DNA from: Cryomorphaceae bacterium
Lineage (GTDB): Bacteria; Bacteroidota; Bacteroidia; Flavobacteriales_D; SKUL01
Reading direction: 5' to 3'
Length of the DNA: 39,273 nucleotides
Assembly (NCBI GenBank): GCA_007695365.1
Contig: REDV01000076.1
Span: 1-39,273 of the forward strand
The position numbers and the translations under genes are program-made. Positions 10,061-39,031 of this stretch are shown in pieces (the stretch's first letter is position 1; each line of letters starts with the position of its first letter). The notes under the pieces were generated by a model. The model searched no databases. It saw nothing but the letters and a program-made list of their open reading frames with translations, and was not told the origin of the DNA.

Positions 10061-10586
10061 AGTCCAACAAAAAACGCCTGCTCCGTATGAAGCAAGCGTT
10101 TCCTTTCAAGTGTGTGCCCAGGACTGGACTTACCGGAACGTGTTTTTCAGCGCTCCGCTGTCGCGGAAAAACATCGTCCGGCATAGACCTCTCGTCCAGT
10201 CCAGCAAAATTCAATGAAACAAAAAACGCCTGCTCTGTTTAAAGCAAGCGTTTCCTTTCAAGTGTGTGCCCAGGACTGGACTTACCGGAACGTGTTTTTC
10301 AGCGCTCCGCTGTCGCGGAAAAACATCGTCCGGCATAGACCTCTCGTCCAGTCCAGCAAAATTCAATGAAACAAAAAACGCCTGCTCTGTTTAAAGCAAG
10401 CGTTTCCTTTCAAGTGTGTGCCCAGGACTGGACTTACCGGAACGTGTTTTTCAGCGCTCCGCTGTCGCGGAAAAACATCGTCCGGCATAGACCTCTCGTC
10501 CAGTCCAGCAAAATTCAATGAAACAAAAAACGCCTGCTCTGTTTAAAGCAAGCGTTTCCTTTCAAGTGTGTGCCCAGGACTGGACT
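10061..10586. repeat. Tandem array of 152-bp units derived from the tRNA-Leu 3' end
   Basis: Three units read as identical and lie end to end at 10115-10266, 10267-10418 and 10419-10570, with a fourth partial start that is the tRNA gene itself (10571). Each unit starts with the last 16 nt of the tRNA-Leu gene (complement), then a long imperfect palindrome closed by 9-nt perfect arms (for the middle unit 10273-10281 with 10346-10354), then a spacer, a terminator hairpin and a 13-nt tail. A shortened, diverged copy of the spacer and terminator lies at 10061-10114, probably the original downstream flank of the tRNA gene. No open reading frame of note runs through it. Confidence 0.92.
10525..10556 (-). 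terminator. Intrinsic terminator downstream of tRNA-Leu
   Basis: Ten-nt arms at 10529-10538 and 10547-10556 pair with one G-T wobble, and six T follow on the minus strand. It sits 14 bp past the tRNA. Identical copies recur every 152 bp at 10373-10404 and 10221-10252, and a variant with a longer stem lies at about 10070-10100. Confidence 0.8.
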
Positions 10587-10652
10587 CGAACCAGCACGCC
10601 TTGCAGCACTGCCGCCTGAAGACAGCGTGTCTACCAATTTCACCACCTGGGC
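10571..10652 (-). tRNA. tRNA-Leu (anticodon CAG)
   Basis: The 82-nt sequence on the minus strand folds as a class II tRNA: acceptor stem GCCCAGG with CCTGGGC, a D arm containing AAATTGGTAGACA, an anticodon stem CTGTC/GGCAG enclosing the loop TTCAGGC with anticodon CAG, a long variable arm, and a T arm GCTGG-TTCGAGT-CCAGT. The discriminator base is A, as expected for tRNA-Leu. The CCA end is not encoded (CAC follows). The gene is upstream, in its own direction, of the 152-bp repeat array that copies its 3' end. Confidence 0.95.
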
Positions 10653-10744
10653 ATAATCAATACAAAAGAACAATTTCAATCGAAGTTTACCCTGTGTCGA
10701 CTCCCGCAAAAACAGAAATCTATGATTTCGTCTTTTTGCGAGGA

Positions 10745-10830
10745 CCCCGAGCTTCAAGCGGTGCGCAAAGCAACGCGAAGATGTCTCGGGGCAATTTCAC
10801 CACTTGGGCATTATTTCAGTACAAAAGAAC
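10745..10830 (-). pseudogene. Decayed 5' half of a second tRNA-Leu copy fused to a hairpin
   Basis: The segment 10777-10830 aligns with the 5' half and 5' flank of the intact tRNA-Leu (AATTTCACCAC, TTGGGCAT and ACAAAAGAAC on the plus strand), but the anticodon arm and the 3' half are missing. In their place is a perfect 7-bp outer stem (10745-10751 with 10785-10791) with further inner pairing, forming a roughly 47-nt hairpin. No functional tRNA can be made. The rest of 10653-10930 shows nothing else I can name. Confidence 0.6.
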
Positions 10831-27538: not shown

Positions 27539-27565
27539 AGGCCCCTGTTTTTGGCAGAGGCCTTC
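27537..27565. terminator. Hairpin between the YwqK-like gene and rnpB
   Basis: Eleven-nt arms with one mismatch (27537-27547 and 27555-27565) enclose a T-rich loop; the left arm overlaps the stop region of the YwqK-like gene. There is no clear T run on either side, so a terminator role for the two convergent genes is only probable. Confidence 0.5.
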
Positions 27566-27570
27566 AGATA

Positions 27571-27921
27571 GCAAACCTGTAAGCCGGGTTCTGTATCTCC
27601 CGAAGAAGACCTTCATCATTTATCTAAGCGACCTACCCTCCCGGATCGGACGAGCAGCCCTCAATCCCGGGTTTACATGGTCTTACAGCCCTCAAGGTTT
27701 ACCCTCCCGGCAGGTTACCCCACCGCGACGTGAGCTCTTACCTCGCGTTTTCACCCTTATCCCGAAGCATTTCGGGACGGTATCGTTTCTGTGGCACTTT
27801 CTGTTACCGGATCGTTGCCTCACCGGCACCCCCGTTTTCACGGGGTGAGGCGCTCTGTGCTGCCCGGACTTTCCTCCCTCCCCGCCAACAATGTTGGGAG
27901 GAGAGCGATGAAGCGGTTTGC
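27571..27921 (-). ncRNA. rnpB: RNase P RNA, bacterial class A
   Basis: Read on the minus strand the segment carries the conserved parts of the catalytic RNA of RNase P: GAGGAAAGTCCGGGC with ACAGAGCG near the 5' end, GGGTGAAAACGCGAGGTAAG with GAGCTCACG in the centre, and the 3' block ACAGAACCCGGCTTACAGG. Terminal bases 27915-27921 pair with 27571-27577 to form P1, which fixes both ends at a length of about 351 nt. It processes the 5' ends of tRNAs together with the protein RnpA. A matching -7 box lies 5 bp before the 5' end. It is immediately downstream of the Smr gene. Confidence 0.95.
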
Positions 27922-27925
27922 ACTG

Positions 27926-37580: not shown

Positions 37581-38000
37581 ATGGATAAATCAAAAAGATA
37601 TGAAGATCACTTCAAACGTCAGGTAGTACTTGAGGTCCTTAGCGGCAGGGTCACTAAGGAAGAAGCCCGCAGGCGCTACAAAATAGGTGGAAAGTCTACG
37701 GTCTTAAAGTGGATGCGAATAATGTCTGGACTAAAGGCTTCAGCCGTTGGTACCGATCCTATCCCTATCTTGCGTTCCATGGGTAAGAAAGAAGAAAAAA
37801 ACACCCCAATCGATAATATTGAAAAAGAGAAGCTTTATGCTGAGATAAAGCGTCTTCAGGCCGCACTAGAACACGCGGAGTTAAAAGGACGTGCATATCA
37901 GATTATGGTGGAAATTGCGCGTGAACAATACGGTATCGATCTTGAAAAAAAGCCTGGAGCCAAACAGTCAAAAGACTCAAAGAAGAACAACCCAAAATGA
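37581..38000 (+). CDS. IS3-family transposase, OrfA (helix-turn-helix)
   Basis: The 139-residue OrfA starts with a helix-turn-helix that binds the IS ends (DHFKRQVVLEVLSGRVTKEE and ARRRYKIGGKSTVLKWMR) and ends in a leucine-zipper-like helix (KEKLYAEIKRLQAALEHAEL). The stop TGA overlaps the OrfB start as ATGA. The preceding codons AAC CCA AAA could allow a -1 slip to make an OrfAB fusion, as in other IS3 elements. Confidence 0.92.
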   Translation: MDKSKRYEDHFKRQVVLEVLSGRVTKEEARRRYKIGGKSTVLKWMRIMSGLKASAVGTDPIPILRSMGKKEEKNTPIDNIEKEKLYAEIKRLQAALEHAELKGRAYQIMVEIAREQYGIDLEKKPGAKQSKDSKKNNPK

Positions 38001-39031
38001 GTTATAAAACTCTTTGTGGGCTGTTTGGCAATACAAGACAAGCCTATTACAAACGCCTCAATTTTGCTGAAGAATCTCTTGCAACAGAAGAAATTATACT
38101 GGGGGCAGTGAATCGTATCAGGATCAGAGCCAGTACCCACCGATGGGGAGCAAGAAAACTCAAGGATCTTGTAAATGAGGAGCTTCTGCCTATGGGTATC
38201 CGTGTTGGCCGAGATCATCTCTTTGACCTGCTACGTGAGAACGGCATGCTGGTACGTAGGCGCAAGCGGAAGTTTTTCACCACACAAAGTCATCATTGGC
38301 TGCACAAGTATGATAATCTTATTCAGGACATGGAACTTACTGATGCTAACCAGCTCTGGGTAGCTGATATTACGTACGTGAAGAGCCAAGGGCATGTGTA
38401 CTACCTCTATCTTATCACAGATGCGTACTCTCAGAAAATAGTAGGCTGGCACCTGTCGAAAGACCTTCGAGCCAGTTCTGCTGTAGCGGCTTTGAAAATG
38501 GCCCTGAGAGCCAATCAGGATATTACCGGTAAGCTGATTCACCATTCTGACCGAGGTGTTCAATATTGCAGCGAGCAATACGTTAAAATCCTTAAAAGGC
38601 ATCAGATCGACATTAGTATGACTAAGCCTGGCTCGCCTCAGCAAAATGCTATTGCGGAAAGGATAAACGGTATACTGAAGGAAGAATGGCTTTATGATGC
38701 CGCCTTTGAAAACCTTAAACAGGGCAAGAATGCCATCAAGAAAATCATTTCTGTTTATAACAGCTACCGTCCTCATAACAGTCTGGGTAATAAAACACCA
38801 GAACAAATACATGACTTAGGTTTTTCAAGGCATCAAGCCGTTCGCGTTATTGGTAAAACCTATACTTACAGAAAAAGGACAGCCTGTGTAGACCATCCTT
38901 TAGAAAGCAATAACGCTTACGGGCAAACGATTATTCCTCGGGCAGTTGCTCCTCAGCAGAGCTGCCTTCCGCTTGATCGTTGTACAGCAAAAAAAGTGAT
39001 AGCAGATGAAAACACAAACAAAAGTTATTAA
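37997..39031 (+). CDS. IS3-family transposase, OrfB (DDE integrase)
   Basis: The 344-residue OrfB has the HTH_21-like N-terminal part (THRWGARKLKDLVNEE) and an rve integrase core with the DDE triad: Asp in LWVADITYV, Asp in LIHHSDRGVQY, and Glu in QQNAIAERINGILKEEW. The C-terminal YNSYRPHNSLGNKTPEQ motif is typical of the family. OrfB is in the -1 frame relative to OrfA and has its own ATG in a 4-bp overlap, so it can be read by re-initiation or frameshift. Confidence 0.95.
   Translation: MSYKTLCGLFGNTRQAYYKRLNFAEESLATEEIILGAVNRIRIRASTHRWGARKLKDLVNEELLPMGIRVGRDHLFDLLRENGMLVRRRKRKFFTTQSHHWLHKYDNLIQDMELTDANQLWVADITYVKSQGHVYYLYLITDAYSQKIVGWHLSKDLRASSAVAALKMALRANQDITGKLIHHSDRGVQYCSEQYVKILKRHQIDISMTKPGSPQQNAIAERINGILKEEWLYDAAFENLKQGKNAIKKIISVYNSYRPHNSLGNKTPEQIHDLGFSRHQAVRVIGKTYTYRKRTACVDHPLESNNAYGQTIIPRAVAPQQSCLPLDRCTAKKVIADENTNKSY

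Follow-up and report, generated by a model that had tools for sequence, protein, structure and literature searches.

The array behind tRNA-Leu(CAG)

The window analysed here is a 39,273-nucleotide stretch of the genome of a Cryomorphaceae bacterium (contig REDV01000076.1). It contains a tRNA-Leu(CAG) gene on the minus strand, and downstream of this gene, i.e. at lower coordinates, lies a tandem array (10066-10586) for which Tandem Repeats Finder gives a period of 152, 3.4 copies and a 99% match (Table 1). The original prediction, made from the sequence, placed three exact 152-bp units 3' of the tRNA, and the three copies are indeed 100% identical across 152 bp. A DNA search of the same genome finds exactly three copies of the Leu-type unit, a count that comes from a draft assembly of 154 contigs in which the array behind tRNA-Met stops at a contig end, so that copy numbers are uncertain. 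On the plus strand each unit starts with the 16 nt TGCCCAGGACTGGACT, which are nt 58-73 of tRNA-Leu; the further claims that every unit opens with the last 16 nt of the tRNA and that each carries a copy of the tRNA terminator are correct. A fourth terminator copy (10066-10110) has diverged, with a 93% match over 45 nt.

The predicted long hairpin is confirmed by folding. A single unit folded as RNA reaches -66 kcal/mol compared with -42 in shuffles (z = -6.5); as DNA the z-score is -5.8, and for the whole array it is -11.9.

Table 1. Position of the tRNA-Leu(CAG) gene, the repeat units and their parts in the window.
Feature	Position	Strand	Evidence
tRNA-Leu(CAG), host gene; nt 58-73 form the repeated tail	10570..10652	-	ARAGORN, Rfam
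152-bp unit nearest tRNA-Leu	10419..10570	-	repeat analysis, sequence search
Second (middle) 152-bp unit, identical to the others	10267..10418	-	repeat analysis, sequence search
Farthest (distal) 152-bp unit, identical to the others	10115..10266	-	repeat analysis, sequence search
Hairpin module, tRNA-proximal: 5' arm, core and tRNA tail	10419..10513	-	covariance models R1/R2, fold
Hairpin module, middle: 5' arm, core and tRNA tail	10267..10361	-	covariance models R1/R2
Hairpin module, distal: 5' arm, core and tRNA tail	10115..10209	-	covariance models R1/R2
5' arm GGACTGGAC, complement of tRNA-Leu nt 59-67; repeated at +152, +304	10194..10202	-	sequence, pairing
Core GAGAGGTCTATGCCGG...CCGGTAA; repeated at +152, +304	10130..10193	-	pattern match
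Tail, copy of tRNA-Leu nt 58-73; repeated at +152, +304	10115..10130	-	sequence, tail comparison
tRNA-adjoining terminator copy; others at 10372-10405, 10220-10253	10524..10557	-	sequence
Diverged terminator copy closing the array, distal end	10068..10101	-	sequence, search

On the other side of the gene, the 5' end of tRNA-Leu and its upstream flank are duplicated ∼158 bp upstream (10635-10671 and 10792-10830). Strong hairpins lie between the two copies, and the same arrangement is present in the sister species (locus L013). The window also contains a class A RNase P RNA on the minus strand (27564-27924) and an IS3-like transposase with an rve integrase core (37997-39031).

Arm, core and tail

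Read on the tRNA-sense strand, the units have a common order: trailer with terminator, 5' arm, GAGAAGUUUAU, a hairpin, AA, and a copy of the tRNA that runs from nt 59 to the 3' end. The 5' arm is the reverse complement of the host tRNA's own nt 59-63, in some units up to nt 68, and pairs with the tail (the 3' strand of the host T-stem) to form the closing helix. Within it, GAGAAGUUUAU opposite AA makes a conserved internal loop. The core hairpin begins with a C-G or G-U pair and its tip is free in length, giving a core of 29 to about 75 nt, rarely longer. The tail restarts in the T-loop at tRNA nt 58/59 and is usually identical to the host tRNA at 15-16 of 16 positions. The original prediction contained neither the specificity of the arm for each host tRNA, nor the constant junction at nt 58/59, nor the likeness to the RtT repeats of Escherichia coli.

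The match between arm and host is specific. Arms pair with their own tRNA at 6.36 of 8 positions and with the tails of other tRNAs at 4.95 (0 of 20000 permutations), and at nt 63 the pairing frequency is 0.82 with the own tail compared with 0.36 with others. As the covariance model favours paired arms, the comparison was repeated on 14 units detected solely through their core sequence, where own pairing is 5.64 of 7 against 4.32, a difference reached in 0 of 50000 permutations. Half of the units found by a mechanical detector (see below) pair over six or more bases unbroken, which happens for 1% with the tails of other tRNAs.

The paired positions covary: both sides change in 22 of 29 pairs. 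Covarying cells number 135, where shuffles have 38, and in the short-core set 143, where shuffles have 49; the alignments are fitted to the model and hence lean towards it. In the first six core pairs there are 32 G-U and 2 A-C mismatches, mostly at the first pair. This excess of G-U favours folding of the tRNA-sense strand, either as RNA or as single-stranded DNA. The closing helix has 20 G-U and 11 A-C mismatches, with no clear G-U bias. Likenesses to self-cleaving ribozymes, a tetraloop receptor and group II introns were considered and dropped because the conserved nucleotides are missing.

Units at other tRNA genes

A relative of the Leu unit (78%) lies at the end of contig 65 of the same genome. 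The gene in front of it is tRNA-Met(CAU), and it is this tRNA, rather than tRNA-Leu, that its arms match. A covariance model built from five units (R1) finds further units behind tRNA-Lys (two in tandem) and tRNA-Asn, and in this search the units of the genome are confined to the four genes for Leu, Met, Lys and Asn. In the sister species (G001), tRNA-Leu and tRNA-Met both have units behind them, and some of these are lengthened, always at one point of the core, by ∼180 bp or more of additional structured sequence. Such long forms, with extra hairpins at the same core point, occur at L013 (1898-2175), L014 (1490-1803) and L022 (1140-1440). At tRNA-Lys the two genomes differ. The Cryomorphaceae locus holds two units of 151 bp, with a direct repeat of tail and terminator on either side; in the sister species the site is empty, and a single terminator follows the tRNA. 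Arrays are homogeneous within genomes.

Beyond these two species, R1 matches occur in other families of the same order, behind Arg, Asn, Val and tmRNA genes. By kinship this order is Flavobacteriales: genome G168, which belongs to it, includes the Crocinitomicaceae contig of L050. A pattern scan of 84,980 species genomes yielded about 17 true loci behind Met, Arg, Leu, Gly, Asn, Gln, Ala, Val and tmRNA genes, all in Bacteroidota except one probably misbinned contig, that of the 'Kuenenia' locus L061, which is almost the same as Fluviicola L067. Seven of the 24 matches in a contig scan were chance, mostly coding sequence (L044, L048, L049, L053, L055, L065 and L066), and a first regular-expression scan proved too permissive, covariance models being used instead. 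Of 395 Bacteroidia genomes, a broader model (R2) matched 31 and a further one (R3) 57, numbers that are lower bounds on prevalence because of the strict filters applied; a phylum sample added three carrier genomes outside Bacteroidia. Coverage beyond Bacteroidota consists of the one pattern scan and E. coli.

Of 29 loci of the class, 28 have a tRNA or tmRNA gene immediately 5' on the same strand, as do 16 of the 20 loci held out of model building. The mechanical detector, which allows at most one mismatch within the first five arm bases, collects 72 distinct units at 21 kinds of tRNA/tmRNA; before removal of duplicates it gave 163 matches with the own tail and eight with the tail of another tRNA.

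No Rfam family fits the units, and Rfam scans at a loose threshold returned chance matches only. Searches by pattern or model found no member in phage, plasmid or viral collections; a deliberately loose viral pattern was also run, and among the 80 loci listed none scored with R1. The sequence consensus of the unit was not found in the literature searched. The units form a hitherto unlisted family of hairpin elements that is widespread in Bacteroidota and lies behind 21 or more kinds of tRNA or tmRNA gene. The finding that, by the original prediction, would have counted against it, a unit present nowhere outside this locus, is clearly not borne out.

Spread between tRNA genes

The cores group by genome and not by tRNA. 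Mean core identity is 0.618 when the cores come from one genome and different tRNAs, 0.511 when a single tRNA is compared across genomes and 0.498 in unrelated pairs. None of 2000 shuffles of the genome labels reaches the observed clustering, whereas shuffles of the tRNA labels often do (p = 0.18). Near-identical cores are found at tmRNA, Gln and Val genes of different species, and at Asn and Asp of one genome, each with its own arm. Vertical inheritance at each tRNA would predict clustering by tRNA, which is not seen; the cores have therefore spread between tRNA genes, with the arm re-derived each time. The trailer that follows the tRNA and the one that follows the last tail are unrelated in about half of the loci. 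Inserts thus often bring or acquire their own terminator, and the boundary of the insert on the trailer side is not constant.

The RtT repeats of Escherichia coli

The repeats behind tyrT of E. coli have been an unexplained curiosity for over forty years. In K-12 they are 178 bp long and contain the annotated small RNA rttR. Read by the rule above, a tyrT repeat consists of an arm (GGGGAAGGAT), GAGAAG, a complex interior, GAGTA and a tail from A59, with ten uninterrupted arm pairs and the same junction as in the Bacteroidota units. The Rfam model RF00391 has further matches in E. coli. They reach 101 bits behind proK and 47-60 bits in the lysT operon and after lysV; those following arg genes stay below the cut-off. 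The number of arm pairs with the own tRNA is 10 for tyrT, 8 for argV, 6 for proK, 5 for lysT, lysW and argQ, and 3 for argZ. The tyrT unit is present in 4,655 of 5,426 E. coli genomes, at one to nine places in each. Units with tRNA-specific arms behind the lys, arg and pro tRNA genes of K-12 (L302, L306 and L312) have no annotation in its record.

RtT and the Bacteroidota units are alike in (i) their tandem arrangement directly 3' of a tRNA, (ii) a tail that restarts at T-loop nt 58/59 and (iii) a closing helix made of the tail (the T-stem 3' strand) and a 5' arm. After the arm, tyrT has GAGAAG, the Bacteroidota consensus is GAGAAGTTTAT and the unit in the window reads GAGAGG; proK has GAGAAC, and the E. 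coli lys and arg units are without GAGAAG. The tyrT unit ends in a UAA-like sequence resembling that of the Bacteroidota units, and the proK trailer terminator is duplicated as terminators are in the Bacteroidota array. The interior of the RtT hairpin, however, is unrelated in sequence. RF00391 has no match in the window or in the tested Bacteroidota loci, and none above its gathering cut-off in four Bacteroidia genomes; R2 in turn misses the E. coli RtT. As each model misses the other's members, the array is not called a member of RtT. Its architecture is RtT-like, and common descent of the two groups is possible. Text searches of the literature on RtT returned nothing about its spread.

With a covarying counterpart in Bacteroidota, at some 21 kinds of tRNA, including tmRNA, what was an oddity of one locus becomes a general phenomenon that follows a clear rule, and the origin of tRNA-tail repeats becomes testable. 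The Bacteroidota units also provide a model ready for Rfam, and tRNA-tail elements explain tandem junk and contig breaks behind tRNA genes.

Origin of the units

The position behind tRNA genes, the junction, the arm rule, the covariation, the spread and the one empty site fit best with an array of RtT-like tRNA-tail elements that insert at the T-loop, regenerate the tRNA end, make their arm from the target and grow in number by recombination. This reading is probable, if well short of certain; the array is a Bacteroidota counterpart of RtT and most likely a non-autonomous structured element inserting at tRNA 3' ends. It agrees with the original prediction, which had offered as one of two options a palindromic element that inserts there and restores the end. 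A copy would enter behind a tRNA gene at the T-loop junction, and regeneration of the tRNA end upon entry would make the insertion harmless. The arm may then be made anew by snap-back copying, in which the free 3' end of the core, on the antisense strand, copies the adjoining T-stem; such synthesis would account for an arm that is perfectly complementary over 5-10 bases and then ends sharply. Alternatively, the pairing arm may be kept by selection on the RNA. Identical neighbouring units would multiply by unequal recombination. The units are presumably transcribed by read-through from the tRNA promoter, into an RNA predicted to fold on the tRNA-sense strand with its tail held in the closing helix. 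Three results count against the element: no mobilising enzyme is linked to it at the loci examined, the insert boundary varies on the trailer side, and the phage, plasmid and viral collections searched yielded no member. In a comparison with transposon derivatives (MITEs), no autonomous form was found, and one unit contains a defence gene pair. A wider proposal is more doubtful and is put forward tentatively: a mobile structured element would colonise tRNA genes of all kinds, deriving one arm afresh from the T-stem of every new target and restoring the tRNA end, and both RtT and the Bacteroidota units would have branched from one ancient class. If true, it would describe a selfish or domesticated RNA/DNA element whose match to the target adjusts itself.

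The units may instead be regulatory or processing RNAs retained by the host, such as RtT-type small RNAs or decoys for tRNA 3'-end enzymes (for the latter, the original prediction suggested RNase Z or the CCA-adding enzyme as possible targets), with the pairing of arm and tail under selection at the RNA level. Strong covariation, the preference for G-U pairs on the tRNA-sense strand, the conserved internal loop and the annotation of E. coli RtT as a small RNA all point this way. Against them speak the patchy occurrence of the units, in 57 of 395 genomes, cores that follow the genome and not the tRNA, the empty tRNA-Lys site of the sister species and the lack of a clear G-U bias in the closing helix. 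Retained RNAs are thus an unlikely origin, albeit one to be taken seriously.

Marginally less probable again are remains or derivatives of integrative elements, i.e. a tyrosine recombinase with its attachment site at the tRNA 3' end, or a hairpin-site system resembling integrons. A direct repeat of the tRNA 3' end that begins in the T-loop, inserts that often bring their own terminator and an Ietas defence pair within a tRNA-Leu unit (L045) would suit this origin. A single integrase with a fixed attP, however, leaves the separate arm match at each tRNA unexplained, no integrase was seen beside the loci examined, and the junction sequence has no integron R-box consensus.

Slippage or unequal exchange, the other option of the original prediction, is the likely cause of the copy number in the window, where the three units are fully identical, in keeping with the homogeneity of arrays within genomes. 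As the whole story, namely local duplication of an old and vertically inherited tRNA 3' flank, it is refuted and given very little weight: one core stands behind other tRNAs with other arms, cores do not cluster by tRNA, and the sister species has an empty site. An assembly artefact, for which exact repeats in a 154-contig draft might be taken, is negligible, given the same architecture in dozens of independent assemblies, including the single-contig genomes G019 and G429. On balance, the interpretation given in the original prediction is partly supported.

Comparison with other systems and neighbouring genes

Tail-regenerating elements of the kind favoured here share traits with three known systems. 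Integron attC sites likewise fold into a hairpin that has two stem boxes and an unpaired spacer and varies in the length of its tip; the units differ in lacking the integron recombination box (the junction in the units read is AA followed by tRNA nt 59), in having a tRNA gene as host site and in an arm whose sequence depends on the tRNA. REP and other dispersed palindromes are also short, non-coding palindromic repeats, and some unit tips (CCTGAGCGAAGTCGAAGG) are similar to them, whereas the units have a tRNA-specific arm and tail and lie behind tRNA genes, only four of them in the genome studied. Tips reading CCTGAGCGNAGTCGAAGG or similar occur at L329, L340, L345 and L347; we take them to resemble dispersed palindromes of Bacteroidota genomes, as if exchanged with them. 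Genomic islands targeted to tRNA genes have the tRNA 3' end in a direct repeat as well, but the units are about 100-150 bp long and in nearly all cases free of genes.

At L045 (2900-7018), behind tRNA-Leu, a complete Ietas anti-phage pair (the AAA ATPase IetA and the subtilase IetS) separates the 5' half of a unit from a second unit. The pair is cargo or a later insertion, and the arrangement suggests a harmless niche behind tRNA genes, usable by elements and, once, by a defence system. At L249 (93-1585), a 23S rRNA-intervening-sequence protein gene and a weak WG-repeat lipoprotein gene lie between tRNA-Leu and a unit, and a second, degenerate unit start is present.

Genes for GIY-YIG proteins adjoin units at L047, L054, L025 and L027. 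They were considered as the mobiliser and rejected, since most unit loci lack such a gene and the genes are part of a separate type of tRNA duplication, in which the 5' half is joined to a palindrome. At L047, L054 and L025 they are accompanied by broken copies of tRNAs that contain palindromes, e.g. TCCGTCAGCTGACGGA in the anticodon loop. In the Cryomorphaceae genome itself, a contig end (L080, 1-665 of contig C85) carries a tandem array with a period of about 295 bp upstream of tRNA-Arg(ACG). Its repeat consists of the tRNA 5' half, the palindrome CCTGCCTGCCGGCAGGCAGG and a GIY-YIG ORF, in at least two copies up to the end of the contig, a mirror-image arrangement that regenerates the 5' half of the tRNA.
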